Below the pieces are notes generated by a model. It was not told the origin of the DNA. It worked only from the letters and a program-made list of their open reading frames with translations, and made no database searches. From Antarctobacter albus (GTDB lineage Bacteria; Pseudomonadota; Alphaproteobacteria; Rhodobacterales; Rhodobacteraceae), in NCBI RefSeq assembly GCF_900101505.1, contig NZ_FMZI01000008.1, positions 124,001 through 188,000 of the forward strand: 64,000 bases of DNA, given 5' to 3'. Numbering within the stretch: position 1 is the first letter of the stretch; each line of letters starts with the position of its first letter. Below are positions 3,820-11,647 of the stretch, one piece after another. A program made the translations under genes and the position numbers.

Positions 3820-4727
3820 CAGGCGTTGCCGTCGCGGAAGTCGAGCCCCATTTCCGAGTAGCGCTCCGCCTCTTCGAGCCAGTTCTCGCGGACCTTGACC
3901 TGCAGGAAGAGGTGGATGGGACGACCGAGGAATTCGGTCAGTTCCTCGCGGGCGGCCTTGGAGATGGCCTTGATCGTCTCGCCCTTGTGGCCCAGGACGA
4001 TGCCCTTGTGGCCGTCGCGGGCGACATAGATCACCTGGTCGATGCGGGCCGAGCCGTCCTTGCGCTCTTCCCAGTTCTCGGTCTCGACGGTCAGCTGGTA
4101 GGGCAGTTCCTGGTGCAGGCGCAGTGTCAGCTTCTCGCGCGTGATCTCGGCGGCGATCATGCGCATCGGCAGGTCTGCGATCTGGTCTTCGGGGTAGAGC
4201 CAGGGGCTTTCGGGCATTTCGTCGGCGAGCCAGTGGCGCAGGTCCTCGATCCCGTAGCCCTTTTCAGCGGAGATCATGAAGGTCCGGGCAAATTCGTAAC
4301 GCTCGTTCATGGCCTGGGTCAGGGCCAGGAGGGCAGGCGCCTCGACGCGGTCGATCTTGTTGATGGCGAGGGCAACGGTGCGGTTCCGAGGCAGGTCCTT
4401 CAGGCCTTCGAGGATGCTCTCGACGCCTTCGGTGATGCCGCGGTGCGCCTCGATCAGCAGCACGATGACATCGGCATCCGCCGCGCCGCCCCAGGCGGCG
4501 GCCACCATCGCGCGGTCCAGCCGGCGGCGCGGTTTGAACAGGCCCGGCGTGTCGACGAAGACCAGCTGGCTGTCGCCCTCCATCGCGACGCCACGGATGC
4601 GGGCGCGGGTGGTCTGGACCTTGTGGGTCACGATGCTGACCTTGGCCCCCACCATCGCGTTGGTGAGGGTGGATTTGCCTGCGTTGGGCTCTCCGATCAG
4701 GGCGATGAAGCCGGCGCGTGTGGTCAT
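3819..4727 (-). CDS. era: GTPase Era
   Basis: 302 residues, normal for Era, the essential GTPase that binds 16S rRNA and assists 30S maturation. The G domain has G1 GEPNAGKST (about 12-20), G3 DTPG, G4 NKID and the SAEKGYG G5. The C-terminal KH domain carries [17 protein letters not shown], with the GxxG-like loop HKGE. It is followed by DUF1491 with overlapping stop and start codons. The usual rnc neighbour is separated here by an EamA transporter gene. Confidence 0.97.
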
Positions 4728-4815
4728 GACAGATCTGTCCGAATGCGATTTCGAAGTGCCTCCCCTAGGCCAGATGAGGCGTCAAGGCCAGAGGATTCGC
4801 ATGTGGCGGGCGGTC

Positions 4816-5706
4816 TCAGGGGGCTGCGCGGCTGATGGTGGTCCGTTTCCGCCCGTCGCGCCAGAGCGAATAAATGCCCGAGGCGACGATCAGCGCCGCG
4901 CCACTCAGGGTCATCGTGTCGGGGCGTTCGCCGAAGACCGTGTAGGCCAGGACCAGCGCCACCAGCAGGCGCGAATAGCGGAAGGGGGCCACGACAGAGA
5001 CCTCGCCGGTGCGCATGGCGGTGGTGAGCGCGGTATAGCCGATCACCCCGGCCACGGCCGTGCCGCAGATCATCGCCGTGGCGGGCAGGGTCGGCAGGCT
5101 GGGCGCAGGTTCGAAGGTCATGATGACGAGGCCCGCGAAGGTGACCACGGCAAAGCCCAGCACACCCAGTTGCGACGGGCGGATATGGGCGGGCGCGGTG
5201 CGGGTGGCCACGTCGCGGCCCGCGAAACCGATCATGCCGAGCAGGGCAAAGACGGCGTTGGGTTCGATCCCCGAGGGCGAGGGGCGGATGATCAGCAGCA
5301 CACCGGCAAATCCCACGGCGGTGGCCAGCCAGCGGTGCGGCCCGATGCGTTCGCCCAGGATCAGCCCGGCCGAGAGCATGACCACCAGCGGCGCGGCCTG
5401 CAGGATGGCCGAGGTGGTCGAGAGCGGCGTATAGGCCAGGCTGAGGGCAAAGAAGAGCCGACCCAGGATCTCGAACCCGGTGCGGATCAGCAGTCCCTTT
5501 TGCAGGTAGGCCGAATCCCAGAGCGGCACGCCGCGACGGCGGGCCTGGACGGCGTAGATCGTCATCGCCAGCAGGCCGAACTGGACCGTGCCCAGACCTG
5601 GTGAAATGCCGCCGGTGCCGGTTGCTGCCTTGAAAAAGGCATCCTCGACCCCGAAGCCGAGCATGGCGAGCATCATCCAGAGGCTGCCTTTTAGATTGTC
5701 GGTCAT
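4816..5706 (-). CDS. EamA/DMT-family inner-membrane transporter
   Basis: 296 residues from the ATG at 5706, which has an AGGGG ribosome site about 7 bases upstream. About ten hydrophobic segments form two EamA repeats. Hallmarks are LGFGVEDAFFKAATG near the N-terminus, the PLVVMLSAGLILGE segment closing the first repeat and the RLLVALVLAYTVFGERPD segment in the second. The family exports metabolites or amino acids; the substrate cannot be inferred. It interrupts the conserved rnc-era pair. Confidence 0.88.
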   Translation of the reverse strand: MTDNLKGSLWMMLAMLGFGVEDAFFKAATGTGGISPGLGTVQFGLLAMTIYAVQARRRGVPLWDSAYLQKGLLIRTGFEILGRLFFALSLAYTPLSTTSAILQAAPLVVMLSAGLILGERIGPHRWLATAVGFAGVLLIIRPSPSGIEPNAVFALLGMIGFAGRDVATRTAPAHIRPSQLGVLGFAVVTFAGLVIMTFEPAPSLPTLPATAMICGTAVAGVIGYTALTTAMRTGEVSVVAPFRYSRLLVALVLAYTVFGERPDTMTLSGAALIVASGIYSLWRDGRKRTTISRAAP

Positions 5707-6251: not shown

Positions 6252-6932
6252 TCAGGCGGTCAGCTTGTCCAGCAGCATACGGGCGGCCATCTGTTCGGCC
6301 TGGCGTTTGCTGCCTGCTGTGGCCTCGGCAGAGGTGCCGTCGGGCAGGCGCACCTCGATGGTGAAGACCGGAGCATGATCCGGACCGCTGCGGGCGGTTT
6401 CGACATACTTGGGCGGCTGGTGGCCGCGCGCCTGAGCCCATTCCTGCAAGGCGGTCTTGGCATCCTTGGCGTCTTCCTCGACCGCGTCGATGCGCTTGTC
6501 CCAGAGCCGCAGGATCAGGGCGCGTGCCGCCTCGAACCCGGCGTCCAGGTAGACTGCGGCAATCACCGCCTCCATCGCGTCACCCAAAAGCGCCATCTTG
6601 CGCCGCCCGCCGGACAGCTGTTCCGACCGCCCCAGTTTCAGCGCGTTGCCGATGCCGACCTCGCGCGCGACATCGGCGCAGGTTTCCTTCCGCACCAGCG
6701 CGTTGAAGCGGGGTGCCATCTGGCCCTCCGTGGCGGCGCGGTCGCGTTCCAAGAGCGCCTCCGCCATGACCAGTCCCAGCACCCGGTCGCCGAGGAATTC
6801 CAGCCGCTGGTTGTCCTCGCGCCCCGGCCCGGACATCGATGCATGGGTGACGGCGCGGCGCAGCAGGCGCGGGTCGGCAAAACGGTGGCCCAGCGACTCC
6901 TGCAGGGCGATGAGTTCGGCGGATACCTTCAT
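6252..6932 (-). CDS. rnc: Ribonuclease III
   Basis: 226 residues, full length. It cleaves double-stranded RNA, including rRNA precursors. The RNase III signature [14 protein letters not shown] (about 41-54) and the second acidic cluster [14 protein letters not shown] (about 117-130) are intact. A double-stranded RNA-binding domain follows (about 155-225, with the [15 protein letters not shown] helix). Its ATG overlaps the stop of the preceding signal peptidase gene (6929-6932), placing rnc third in a lepB - lepB2 - rnc operon. Confidence 0.97.
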
Positions 6933-7897
6933 TCGACTGTCCTTAGCAGGCGCCCTTCGCGCCCTTCCTGCGAATAGAGCACCAGACGCACCCGGCCTGC
7001 AACATGGGCCAGGGGAACCAGCCCGACGCCACCCAATCCTTGCGTGATGCGGCTGTCCAGCGAGTTGTCGCGGTTGTCGCCAAGGACAAAGAGGTGGCCT
7101 TCGGGGATGCGGAATTCGACGGTGTCGTCGGTGCGTTGCGTGCCGATGTTCAGCACGGTGTAGGTGGCGCCGCCGGGCAGGGTTTCACGTGCCGCCTGCT
7201 TGATGCAAGGGGCGCCGGGGGCCGTCGGGGTCAGGCAACGCGGACGGGTCCCGATGGCCGTGGGGCGGTTCGGTTCGCTCCAGTCCGGGGCCGGGGCCTG
7301 CGGCACGGGTGTGCCGTTCAGCATCACCTGACCGTCGCGCATCTGCACCCGGTCGCCGGGCAGCCCGATCACCCGCTTGAGAAAATCCTGCCCGCTGACC
7401 GGATGCCGAAAGACCACCACCGCCCCTCGCTCTGGCGCTGTGAGGCTGCGGGTGGCCAGGGCGTAGTCGCCCGGTTGCAGGGTGGGCGACATGCTGCCGG
7501 TGGGGATGATGTAGGGCGCCCAGGCCACGCGGCTGGCGATCAGGGCGACCATGACCCAGACGAGCGCCCGGCCCGCCTGGCTGAAGGGACCCGGCACCGC
7601 ATCGGGCCTGTTGCGGCGCACCGCCATGATTGCCACCAGCGCAAGCGAGACCAGCGGCACCGCCAGCCCCCACATCCACCAGCCGGACCAACCCATGGCG
7701 CGCAAACGCCGCCGTGCATGACCCCAGAACAAAAGGGTGGCCGCCGCCGCGGCCAGTGCCACACCCGCCCCGGCGGGGCTGAGCGGAGGGACCTGCGCCT
7801 GCGCCACCATCAGGCCCACCACCAGCGCGGCGGCCAGAACGAAACCGGCGCGGCCGGTCAGGCCGCGCCAGTCGAGGGCTGCAGTCAGAAAGCTCAC
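6929..7897 (-). CDS. Second signal peptidase I, fused to an N-terminal DUF805-like membrane domain
   Basis: 322 residues. Residues about 1-120 are a membrane domain with three to four hydrophobic segments and DUF805-type landmarks: GRAGF near 15-19 and [13 protein letters not shown] (62-74), followed by a PLV segment. The C-terminal part is a complete S26 peptidase: [10 protein letters not shown] with Ser135 as nucleophile, [11 protein letters not shown] with Lys174 as general base, and [12 protein letters not shown] near 272-283. It is translationally coupled by ATGA overlaps to lepB before and rnc after. It probably processes preproteins or a special subset of substrates; this is inferred, since lepB itself is intact. 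Confidence 0.88.
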
Positions 7898-8727
7898 TCG
7901 ATTACTTGGAAATACCGGTCGCTGCGCCAGGTCCAGAAAAACAGCATCGAGCGTCCGGCGGAGGAGAACATGATCCGATCCGCCCGGCCGATCAGGTTTT
8001 CATAGGGAACAAAGCCGACCCCGTTGGCGATATTGGGCACGCGGCTGTCCGAAGAATTGTCGCGGTTGTCCCCCATGAAGAAGTAGTGCCCTTCGGGAAC
8101 CGTGTAGACCGGGGTATTGTCGGATCCCTGCATGCCGATGTTCAGGATCGAATGGCTGACACCATTGGGCAGCGTCTCGATCAGCTTTTCCTTGATGCAG
8201 GTGGCGCCGTCGCCGACCGTGCCGTTGGAACAGCGCGGCCGCAGGCCCTGCGGCCCCTGCGGCGCGGCCAGTTCCTCGAACGTGCCGTCGGGGGTCAGTT
8301 CGACCGGGGCGCCGTTGATGTGCAGCACGCCGTTGCGCATCTGGATGCGTTCGCCTGGCAGGCCGACCAGCCGCTTGATGAAATCGCGGCCCGACACCGG
8401 GTGGCGGAACACGACCACGTCACCACGCTTGGGCTCTCCGCCAAAGAGGCGCTTGTTGTCGCCATCGGCCCAGCCGCAGAAATCCTGCGCATCGACGTTG
8501 ATGCCAAAGCGCGGGATGATGATCGAGGGGCAGGAGGCGTAGGAATAGCCATAGGCCATCTTGTTGACGAAAAGGAAATCGCCGATCAGCAGCGTGTCCT
8601 TCATTGACCCCGAGGGGATCCAGAAGGGCTGGAACAGGAAGGTGCGGAAAACGCCCGCGATCAGCAGCGCGTAGACCACCGTCTTGATGGTCTCGACAAG
8701 ACCGCCCTTCTTTTCTTCCTTCGCCAT
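7894..8727 (-). CDS. lepB: Signal peptidase I
   Basis: 277 residues from the ATG at 8727 (MAKEEKKGG). It removes signal peptides from secreted preproteins at the outer face of the inner membrane. There is one N-terminal membrane segment (about 15-32), followed by IPSGSMKDTLLIGD with Ser41, then RDFIKRLVGLPGE with Lys119, and box E GDNRDNSSDSR. A CSNG...TCIKE insertion resembles that of other alphaproteobacterial LepB proteins. The next gene, a second signal peptidase, starts within its last four bases. A divergent plus-strand gene begins 141 bases upstream. Confidence 0.96.
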   Translation of the reverse strand: MAKEEKKGGLVETIKTVVYALLIAGVFRTFLFQPFWIPSGSMKDTLLIGDFLFVNKMAYGYSYASCPSIIIPRFGINVDAQDFCGWADGDNKRLFGGEPKRGDVVVFRHPVSGRDFIKRLVGLPGERIQMRNGVLHINGAPVELTPDGTFEELAAPQGPQGLRPRCSNGTVGDGATCIKEKLIETLPNGVSHSILNIGMQGSDNTPVYTVPEGHYFFMGDNRDNSSDSRVPNIANGVGFVPYENLIGRADRIMFSSAGRSMLFFWTWRSDRYFQVIE

Positions 8728-8868
8728 GTGATCTGCCCTTTGCCTCACCTGTCCGGCGCTTCATGGGCGGCGGGGCAGGGCGTGTCAAGGCGGGAGGGCC
8801 GGGCGTTGACCGGGCAGGGCGGCGCTTGCTACGGTTTGTGAATTGTCGGATCTATCCGGGATTTCATC

Positions 8869-11175
8869 ATGACCTTGCCTCGCCTTCTTGCCACGCTGCT
8901 CATTGTGCTCGCCGGACACAGTGCCAGCGCCTTCGAAGGCTGCAAGTTCTCCTTTCGCATCGATACGCAAAGTTCGGCCCTGCAGGCGCTGATCCAGGGG
9001 GCGTCGGAACGGGGCGGTTTCTGGCGCCCGATTGCCGAGGCTCCGGACGACGTGCAAGAGATCGCGCGCTATATCGGACGGCTGGATGTCTGCCTGATGA
9101 CACCGGATGGCAAGCCGCGGACGGTGACGCTCAACGGTCAGACCCGGACGCTGAAAAGCCCGCAGATGACCACCTGTACCGCCGCGCTCCTGCCTGGCAA
9201 CCGTTTGTTGACCAACAACCACTGTTTCTACAACGACGTCATGGTCGAGGCCGGGTTCACCTTCGTACAGGAGGCGCGCATCAACTTTGGCTACACGGCG
9301 GCGGATTTCACCGGTGACGTCAAGACTTATGCCGTCTCCACGCGAGAGCTGGCGCGGGACGAAGGGCTTGACGCGATGGTGTTGCAGATCTTCGGCGCGG
9401 ATGCGAACGAGGCGCTGGGCGGGCATGTGCCGATGGTGATGCAGCCGCGCGTCCGCCCACGCCGCGCGCTGACCATGATCCACCACCCGAACGGTGATCC
9501 GCAGCAGTTTTCATCCGGCACCTGCCAGGTGCACCCGGACCAGGGCAAGCTGCCCGAAGCGGCCTCGCAATTGCGCCACAGCTGCGAGACGACGGGCGGG
9601 TCTTCCGGCTCTCTTCTGCTGGACGCGCGTTCATTGGCCGTTGTCGGACTGCACAACCAGGGTGGGTTGCACGGGCGCGGCGGCTTCAACGGCGGGCACA
9701 AGATCGCGGCGGTCGAGGCCGCGCTTGGCCTGGGGTTCCACGCCGAGGCGGCGCCCGCGCCGGTCGTCATTCCCAAGCCGGACCCCGAGACCCTGGCCCA
9801 GGAAGCCCTCACCGAGGCGCTGCAACTGGACGGAATCGAGGCGCGGCGCGCGGCGCTGGAAGACGTGGTTTCGCAATTCCCCGACAGCCGCGCGGCAAGA
9901 AGCGCGCGCAACGCGCTGGACCTGATGGCGCCCCGGCAACGCAGCCCCGAAGAGCGGGCCTCGGACGCGCTGATCGCCGCGCTGGCCTTGGGTGATGATG
10001 CGGCGCGCAAACGCGCGTTGACCGAAGTGCTTCGGCAATTCCCGGTCACCCCTGCCGGCAAGAGCGCAAAGACCATGCTCGATTTGATGGCGGCGCGCTC
10101 CGTGGCGAAAGCGCCCCAACCCAGGCCGAAACCCAATGTGCGGATGTCGGATGCCCTGAAACTTGTCAGCTGGGGCGGGGCCTACCAGCATAGCCAGGAC
10201 AAAGCTTATGTCGACCCCTACGTCGCCCGCAACAGGGGGCTGAATGTCAGTTGGGATTCGGATTCCCCCAATGCTGTCAGCGTTCTCCGCAAGGGCGATG
10301 CCACGGCGCGGTCCTGGGACCTGGTGGATGTCGTGGCCGCCGACGCGATCCGCCTCTGCGAGGGTGGGCAGGCCGAACGGATCGACTTTGACCGTATCCT
10401 GGCACCGGCGCCGGACGGCACGCCACCCAGCGCGGATTTCGGCAAGTTCCTGATCAACGACTGCTTCGTTCCCCAGATCGCCTATTCCACGACCATCGGG
10501 TATCGCACCGATCTGGTGGGGCGTCAGCGACCTGGTTCGATCTGCGATATTTTCGATCTGCGGCGGTTCCCTGGCAAACGGGCCTTGGAAAAACGTCCGA
10601 TCAACAACATGGAATGGGCGCTTCTCTGCGATGGCGTACCCGAAAGCCGCCTGTACGAGGTTCTGGCGACCCGACGGGGACAGGACCGGGCGCTGGCCAA
10701 GCTGGACACGATCAAGAACCACGTCATCTGGTGGTCCGCCGGGGCGGAAACACCGCAACTTCTGGCGGATGGCGAGGTGGTCATGGGCTCTGCCTACAAT
10801 GGCCGGCTGTTCAGCTTGATTGCCGACTACGGTCTGCCGGTCGATATTCTCTGGGACCGGCAGGTGATCGACCTGGACGGCTGGATCATCCCCAAGGGCC
10901 TGCCAGCGGACCGCAAGGCCCGCGTGCTGGACTTTCTCTACTTTGCGACGGATGCCCAGCGACTGGCGGATCAGGCGCAGTATATCGCCTACGGCCCCGC
11001 GCGGCGCAGTTCTGCGACTTTGGTGGGGCGTCACAAGGATCTGGGCGTGGACATGAAGCGCCACATTCCCACAGGCCAAGGCAATTTCGCGACGGCCATG
11101 CTCTACAACTATGACTTCTGGGCAGAGCACCGCTCTGCGATCGACAGCCGGTTCAGCGCCTGGCTTAAACGCTAG
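8869..11175 (+). CDS. Secreted trypsin-like serine protease - helical repeats - solute-binding-protein fusion
   Basis: 768 residues with a signal peptide (1-21, cut after SASA). Residues about 70-290 form a trypsin-like protease with candidate triad His118 (LLTNNHCF), Asp168 (EGLDAMVLQ) and Ser246 (TTGGSSGS), plus several cysteines. Residues about 305-355 and 358-408 are two similar helical units, each ending LDLMA. Residues about 426-745 resemble a periplasmic polyamine/iron-type binding protein: a LKLVSWGGAYQ start, a WDLVDVVAADA strand, and a GEVVMGSAYNGR segment. The protein should be periplasmic. No ABC permease is adjacent, so the binding domain may sense or deliver a ligand to the protease. 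The gene is on the opposite strand to the acpS-lepB block and its 3' end lies 3 bases from acpS. I know of no characterised protein with this layout. Confidence 0.85.
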   Translation: MTLPRLLATLLIVLAGHSASAFEGCKFSFRIDTQSSALQALIQGASERGGFWRPIAEAPDDVQEIARYIGRLDVCLMTPDGKPRTVTLNGQTRTLKSPQMTTCTAALLPGNRLLTNNHCFYNDVMVEAGFTFVQEARINFGYTAADFTGDVKTYAVSTRELARDEGLDAMVLQIFGADANEALGGHVPMVMQPRVRPRRALTMIHHPNGDPQQFSSGTCQVHPDQGKLPEAASQLRHSCETTGGSSGSLLLDARSLAVVGLHNQGGLHGRGGFNGGHKIAAVEAALGLGFHAEAAPAPVVIPKPDPETLAQEALTEALQLDGIEARRAALEDVVSQFPDSRAARSARNALDLMAPRQRSPEERASDALIAALALGDDAARKRALTEVLRQFPVTPAGKSAKTMLDLMAARSVAKAPQPRPKPNVRMSDALKLVSWGGAYQHSQDKAYVDPYVARNRGLNVSWDSDSPNAVSVLRKGDATARSWDLVDVVAADAIRLCEGGQAERIDFDRILAPAPDGTPPSADFGKFLINDCFVPQIAYSTTIGYRTDLVGRQRPGSICDIFDLRRFPGKRALEKRPINNMEWALLCDGVPESRLYEVLATRRGQDRALAKLDTIKNHVIWWSAGAETPQLLADGEVVMGSAYNGRLFSLIADYGLPVDILWDRQVIDLDGWIIPKGLPADRKARVLDFLYFATDAQRLADQAQYIAYGPARRSSATLVGRHKDLGVDMKRHIPTGQGNFATAMLYNYDFWAEHRSAIDSRFSAWLKR

Positions 11176-11178
11176 TGG

Positions 11179-11580
11179 TTATCCGCGTGGCCGCGCCTCG
11201 ATCACGACGAAGGCCTGCGCCCAGGGGTGATCGTCGGTCAGGGTGACGTGGATGATGGCCTCGAACCCTTCGGGGGTCATGGCGTCCAGCCTGTCCTTTG
11301 CCCAGCCGGTCACTTCCATCACCGGCTGGCCGGTGTGCAGGTTGGACACCGCCATGTCCTTCCAGGCGATGCCCATCCGCAGCCCCGTTCCCAGCGCCTT
11401 GGAACAGGCCTCTTTCGCGGCCCAGCGTTTTGCGTAGGTGCCCGGCGTATCCGCGCGCCGTTCGGCCTTGGCCTGTTCCACCTCGGTGAAGACACGGTTG
11501 CGGAAGCGGTCGCCGAACCGATCGAGCGTGCCGGCAATCCGGTCGATGTTGGCGAGGTCGGTGCCGATGCCAAGGATCAT
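11179..11580 (-). CDS. acpS: Holo-[acyl-carrier-protein] synthase
   Basis: 133 residues from the ATG at 11580 ([15 protein letters not shown]). It transfers 4'-phosphopantetheine from CoA to apo-ACP. The magnesium-binding Asp of GIGTD (residue 8) and the Glu of [14 protein letters not shown] (about 57-70) are present, and the C-terminal [12 protein letters not shown] closes the fold. A longer upstream start is unlikely. The gene is normally followed by lepB; here the protease fusion gene lies between them, facing it. Confidence 0.95.
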
Positions 11581-11647
11581 TTGGTCAGCCTCCTGCGGGC
11601 GGTTGGGAACCCGTCCCACAAACCCCGGCGCCGCGCCAAGGTCAAGC

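Follow-up and report, generated by a model that had tools for sequence, protein, structure and literature searches.

How does a periplasmic solute-binding domain come to stand behind a trypsin-like serine protease in one polypeptide, and what might it do there? The window, a 64,000-nucleotide stretch of contig NZ_FMZI01000008.1 of the marine bacterium Antarctobacter albus, holds an open reading frame of 768 amino acids at positions 8869 to 11175 of the forward strand that joins a protease half and a solute-binding half in a single frame (Table 1). An earlier note, made from the letters alone, had proposed this fusion, which is borne out by the reading frame itself, by two Pfam domains above their cut-offs (Trypsin_2 at residues 107 to 261, E 1.9e-9; SBP_bac_8 at residues 446 to 717, E 8e-41) and by a second assembly. 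The probable signal peptide suggests that the protein is secreted. The flanking genes are ones that we take to be lepB and acpS. Two adjacent reverse-strand genes of the signal peptidase (lepB) type lie to the left, at 6929-7897 and 7894-8748; they represent two types, and cross-matches between the types in relatives are about 35 to 41% identical.

Table 1. Features of the fusion gene and its neighbours, in positions of the window
Feature	Position	Strand	Basis
Probable Sec signal peptide, residues 1-21 (...GHSASA/FEGC)	8869..8931	+	sequence reading by eye; model helix 3-15
Scaffold N-terminal segment, residues 22-100	8932..9168	+	common to close scaffold proteins; dN/dS 0.019 vs L038
Chymotrypsin-fold serine protease domain, residues ~101-290	9169..9738	+	Pfam Trypsin_2, Foldseek
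Catalytic codons H118 9220-9222, D168 9370-9372, S246 9604-9606	within protease domain	+	
Helical unit 1, residues 306-353, three helices	9784..9927	+	model; DNA likeness to PDZ form stops here
Helical unit 2, residues 360-412, three helices	9946..10104	+	model; likeness to unit 1
Segment exchanged in L039 for DNA encoding two PDZ domains	9928..11188	+	blastn break, both edges aligned
GABA-type periplasmic solute-binding domain, residues 425-768	10141..11172	+	Pfam SBP_bac_8, 8jv1, pocket mapping
lepB (signal peptidase I), left neighbour, divergent	7894..8748	-	ORF; conserved neighbour by tblastn
acpS (holo-ACP synthase), right neighbour, convergent	11179..11619	-	ORF; conserved neighbour

The same full fusion, at 88% identity, is present in the assembly of Mameliella sp. 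CS4 (L038; also seen as G201, probably the same assembly). Between this relative and the window, dN/dS by the NG86 (Nei-Gojobori) method is 0.11 overall, 0.051 for the protease and 0.095 for the binding domain (dS 0.75), with 0.019 for residues 22 to 100 and 0.197 for residues 355 to 424. Purifying selection acts on both halves. With the same frame in a second assembly and selection visible at the codon level, the fusion stands against the suspicion of an assembly error that the earlier note had itself raised. Eight long-frame standalone binding proteins were checked as further candidate fusions and set aside; all eight have their own signal peptide (by eye) and no protease match. The two helical units, anticipated as similar stretches of about 50 residues, are 48% identical over 52 residues and are each modelled as three helices. 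An AlphaFold model of the whole protein (56 aligned sequences) has a mean pLDDT of 89.8 and a pTM of 0.52, so that the individual domains are predicted with confidence, whereas their mutual arrangement is not.

The catalytic residues His118, Asp168 and Ser246 are found exactly where they had been named, and the triad is intact in all 16 close scaffold proteins, which were drawn from the genus (six genomes) and from a sample of 394 genomes of the family. Among the distant paralogs of the same genome, 8 of the 10 aligned keep the full triad and two (L083:3836-5029 and L077:4428-5276) lack two or three of its residues, for a total of 24/26 across the wider set; a first alignment had held seven of these paralogs, all with the triad (7/7), and two of the three added later are the deficient ones. 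Cys103, Cys119, Cys219 and Cys239 are kept in 26/26 of these proteins. The two triad-less paralogs indicate that not every such gene in this genome need encode an active protease. L083 (G000:C34:408000-427000) is a row of four trypsin-like genes on the same strand, one with a peptidoglycan-binding end, one with a beta-helix end, and one (3836-5029) without two triad residues. The triad-less gene at L077 (G000:C27:194000-206000), 4428-5276 on the reverse strand, lies beside a complete protease with Sel1 and peptidoglycan-binding parts and is perhaps a pseudo-protease partner.

A separate model of residues 22 to 300 (pLDDT 88.1, pTM 0.87) has its best Foldseek matches in Deg/HtrA, Esp and V8 proteases, and the sole PDB sequence match of the protease half is the glutamyl endopeptidase 1p3c (E 1.1e-5). 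The protein resembles the HtrA/Deg family (S1C; DegP, DegQ, DegS) in its His-Asp-Ser triad, in the catalytic domains retrieved by Foldseek, in having a regulatory or peptide-binding domain placed C-terminal to a chymotrypsin-fold protease, and in that a relative at the same site (L039) carries two PDZ domains, the second just under the Pfam cut-off. It differs from that family in its conserved cysteines and helical spacer units and in that Pfam finds no PDZ domain in it; further, the NCBIfam model degP_htrA_DO scores 26.9 bits in L039, far short of its cut-off of 416.2, and is absent from the matches of the window protein. The likeness to the V8/Esp glutamyl endopeptidases (S1B) lies in the 1p3c and Foldseek matches, whereas the long C-terminal extension and an acidic residue six positions before the catalytic serine set the window protein apart from them. 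That residue is Glu in 16/16 close proteins and Asp in 10/10 paralogs, and at the trypsin specificity position it speaks for cleavage after basic residues. The V8-like features speak for Glu; on cleavage specificity, the two indications point in opposite directions. A match to the RT-Protease defence gene of PADLOC was set aside; the protease piece alone matches, at 17.8 bits, and Pfam lists no reverse transcriptase.

The two-lobe binding-protein fold is present over the full length of the second half, as seen by Pfam, model and structure match. Its best match among solved solute-binding proteins is 8jv1, a SAR11 PotD with GABA (TM 0.81 by target length, 37% identity), and the assignment of residues 426 to 745 to this fold, which the note had exposed to refutation by fold comparison, survives. 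The structural neighbours include the SAR11 PotD with GABA, MotA with opine-type ligands, and the GABA receptor Atu4243. The GABA site of the sensor iGABASnFR2 consists of W9, T13, F100, Y102, W202, R205, D228 and Y264 (PMC12999171). By alignment, this site maps to W435, Y439, I537, Y539, Y643, R646, D670 and Y708, so that the first Trp, Y102, Arg, Asp and the last Tyr are identical, whereas Thr is replaced by Tyr, Phe by Ile, and the second Trp by Tyr. All eight residues of the predicted pocket equal the majority of 34 standalone relatives (a count that excludes L041, a fusion, and L061, a distant relative, both of which were still in that alignment), and the pocket is kept in both fusions. 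In 15 more distant standalones, five of the eight positions are invariant and only position 539 varies widely; the pocket therefore marks a ligand class rather than selection specific to the fusion.

GABA and opines are the ligands of the closest solved structures, so that GABA-like ligands are a better first guess than iron, and the fused domain should bind a GABA-like solute. The polyamines and Fe3+ put forward in the earlier note are not the first choice: the aligned GABA site matches the standalones at positions including R646 and D670, and the polyamine binders VcPotD1 and PotF score lower than the GABA and opine binders. A polyamine may still be the ligand, as the best match is itself named PotD and its ligand was noted for one of its four entries. 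The window domain thus shares with the GABA-type solute-binding proteins of ABC transporters (SAR11 PotD, Atu4243, Pf622/iGABASnFR) its fold, its 37% identity to 8jv1 and an aligned pocket with conserved Arg and Asp. It differs from them in sitting behind a protease, with no transporter genes adjoining (by eye). The open reading frames around the gene agree with the original observation that no ABC transporter lies nearby: by eye, no partner permease or ATPase gene stands beside it, and it is flanked by lepB and acpS.

The closest standalones retrieved share about 57 to 65% identity with the binding half; the one in the same genome, at 61%, adjoins genes that by eye resemble an ABC ATPase and a permease. 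Of 192 positions that are ≥95% conserved among the 34 near standalones, 42 are changed in the fused domain of the window and 35 in that of L038; the two fusions share 33 of these, including one residue deletion, whereas an individual near standalone departs at 0 to 11. As a distance control, from a fresh alignment with 15 more distant standalones and without L041 and L061, three standalones of comparable identity to the consensus (0.68 to 0.73; fusions, 0.71 to 0.72) differ at 24, 27 and 30 positions. Part of the divergence of the fusions is therefore plain distance, and the excess is modest, which weakens the idea that the domain, once fused, was freed from the constraint of docking. The two fused domains make up a single supported clade, which has a long branch (0.99 changes per column) and lies away from the standalones of their own genus.

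The note had placed the gene inside a normally tight acpS-lepB pair, and rightly so: the pair is about 70 to 190 nt apart, measured between tblastn match ends, in 7/16 genomes. The 16 genomes, 15 searched plus that of the window, were chosen partly for holding scaffold genes; hence, the seven in which the scaffold gene is present are not a frequency in the family. The occupied sites end in SBP_bac_8 (window and G201), two PDZ domains (G202), a beta-helix (G198, G020, G325) and an SBP_bac_3-like module (G199), seven sites are empty (G200, G002, G005, G110, G027, G025, G031), and two genomes (G255, G190) gave neither call. The G199 end (L093) has no Pfam match and was assigned by hhalign (probability 98%, E 1.8e-13). 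The beta-helix copy in G198 is broken by an in-frame stop, and a gene that by eye resembles an IS110 transposase (L093:2182-3261) abuts the 3' end of the G199 scaffold gene between lepB and acpS; some copies at the site may thus be decaying.

The sharpest view of an exchange comes from Mameliella sp. MMSF_3455 (L039). Its DNA is 89.3% identical to the window up to position 9927, inside helical unit 1, and the likeness returns at 89.8% from 11189, 14 nt past the stop codon; in between lies different sequence, which encodes the two PDZ domains (Pfam; the second just below cut-off). Distances between the flanking genes of the window, L038 and L039 are about equal (dS 0.34, 0.38 and 0.33, with the rnc row for L038-L039 not trusted, as it used an over-long frame) and so favour neither direction of the swap. 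The binding halves of the two fusions (dS 0.75) are more diverged than these flanks; either a lower dS of housekeeping genes or a history of their own may lie behind this excess.

Among the 16 close scaffold proteins, Pfam and hhalign found C-terminal ends of SBP_bac_8 (2), a PDZ pair (1), beta-helix (4), SBP_bac_3 (5, one by hhalign only), Sel1 (1) and SH3 (1, at 27.2 bits against a cut-off of 27), and two (L095, L100) have no Pfam match above cut-off; the PDZ parts of the beta-helix forms fall below the Pfam cut-off. Beyond the lepB-acpS site, scaffold proteins carry SBP_bac_3 (four proteins), beta-helix, Sel1 or SH3. On the protease tree, the module type changes at least six times among the 14 proteins with a named end, or seven times if PDZ plus beta-helix is its own type; the two unnamed ends, left out of this count, give eight or nine if counted as types of their own. 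The tree was built without the plasmid copy L118, the G000 relic and a 41% match in G201 that contains an internal stop, and it is poorly supported around the window, L038 and L039 (82/0 and 88/68).

The same scaffold is thus fused to solute-binding domains of both the SBP_bac_8 and the SBP_bac_3 kind, two Pfam families that belong to the wider periplasmic-binding-protein fold. The AapJ-like SBP_bac_3 modules (L088, L089, L090, L098 and the degenerate L093) share with the window protein the protease scaffold and a solute-binding C-terminus, and they differ from it in Pfam family and in that only L093 stands at the lepB-acpS site. The L088 module has its closest match in 4z9n, an amino-acid-binding protein (E 1.3e-78). 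The Arg that we take to be the key residue of these modules is aligned in 3/4 and is lost with a deletion in L089. In L088 and L098, two SBP_bac_3 stretches in tandem suggest two binding modules on one protease. The fusions L089, L090 and L098 adjoin, in three genomes and by eye, a gene resembling major-facilitator transporters.

The scaffold seems narrow in its distribution. It is matched at E 1e-40 in 8/394 sampled genomes of the family (own genome included), and at the level of the class, where 385 genomes were sampled, no genome but that of the window matches at E 1e-25. A scaffold protease with Sel1 repeats lies near conjugation genes on the conjugative plasmid pKUB257 of Mameliella alba (L118, NZ_AP022338.1), and the scaffold can therefore move. 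None of 426 matching plasmid records covers 80% of the fusion as query, and a phage origin was set aside, the scaffold having no match in phage records at E 1e-5. Elsewhere in the genome of the window, the N-terminal or protease half has 12 matches. A scan of 13 such frames gave six that end in peptidoglycan-binding, Sel1, SH3, beta-helix or PDZ parts (one of them, L082, just below the Pfam cut-off) and seven without a named end. A relic of the scaffold N-terminus (residues 6 to 102, 51% identical; L003, L081) at G000:C22 adjoins a PDZ protein and a frame that by eye resembles Sel1 and peptidoglycan-binding proteins.

We consider it rather probable that the window encodes a secreted modular S1 protease with an HtrA-like layout, in which the slot held by PDZ domains in HtrA takes interchangeable recognition or regulatory modules. 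The protein carries an intact triad, a conserved pocket and selection on both halves in one fused frame, and different modules occupy one site in its relatives. It would belong to a small Roseobacteraceae family in which a signal peptide and an N-terminal segment precede a chymotrypsin-fold protease, followed by alpha-helical spacer units in varying number and, at the C-terminus, by a module open to exchange. This reading also explains the family most simply. The module in the window would derive from a GABA-type solute-binding protein of an ABC transporter and would retain its ligand pocket; its ligand would be small and omega-amino-acid-like, or a target bearing such a group. The protease would cut in the periplasm or outside, and the module would set where, on what or when it does so. 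Control of a protease by its C-terminal domain is well known from HtrA, where that domain is a PDZ. That the module acts on the protease at all is an expectation, and the model offers no contact between the two that could be trusted (pTM 0.52).

Because the C-terminal slot is exchangeable, a recognition or regulation module is the safer general reading, and sensing is one special case of it; the two readings therefore share part of their probability. In that special case, proposed in the earlier note as ligand-gated proteolysis, the binding domain would close around a GABA-like solute, thereby move the helical spacer and switch the protease on or off. This is plausible as a reading of the sequence, and we hold it tentatively. 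It draws on the intact predicted pocket, including R646 and D670, and on the presence of SBP_bac_8 and SBP_bac_3 modules on the same scaffold, with the key Arg aligned in three of four AapJ-like modules; with two families in one slot, a single chance event is less likely and sensing stays a live option. Against it, PDZ, beta-helix, Sel1 and SH3 parts in the same slot mean that solute sensing cannot be the general principle, the modelled halves make no trusted contact, and the SBP_bac_3-like end of L093 is degenerate. A possible extension, held with the same reserve, is a plug-in sensor-protease, in which the helical units would be the recombination joint for module exchange at a fixed site and the window protein a protease whose activity in the periplasm is under the control of a GABA-like amino acid.

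It is rather unlikely that the modules are passive, shuffling having attached any stable secreted domain as a spacer, stabiliser or leftover. The variety of modules on the scaffold, the stop-broken copy in G198 and the N-terminal relic in G000 fit such shuffling, whereas the purifying selection on the binding domain and the retention of its pocket in both fusions argue against it. We give less credence still to a docking tag, by which the binding domain would dock on an ABC permease and bring the protease to a transporter or to the membrane: the 61% identical standalone beside ABC transporter genes (by eye) is in its favour, and the 42 and 35 changed positions, a modest excess over the 24 to 30 of the control, speak weakly against it. 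That two genes were joined by an assembly or annotation error is scarcely credible, short of the same error in both assemblies, with no direct support beyond near relatives that carry the halves apart (the PDZ form L039 and the standalone binding proteins), with the second assembly and its codon-level selection against it, and with a binding half that begins without a visible signal peptide, in contrast to all eight long-frame standalones (by eye).

Each separate part of the favoured modular protease is already known. A full-text literature search, which covered few subscription papers, returned no report of the order protease, helical units and solute-binding domain, nor of different ends on one protease at one fixed site. 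The same protease at the same locus in close strains, ending in a PDZ pair, a beta-helix or a solute-binding protein, amounts to a natural experiment on the control of proteolysis by attached domains. If the binding domain does gate the protease, this would be a natural secreted protease controlled by a small molecule, with a pocket of a type already familiar from GABA biosensor work.
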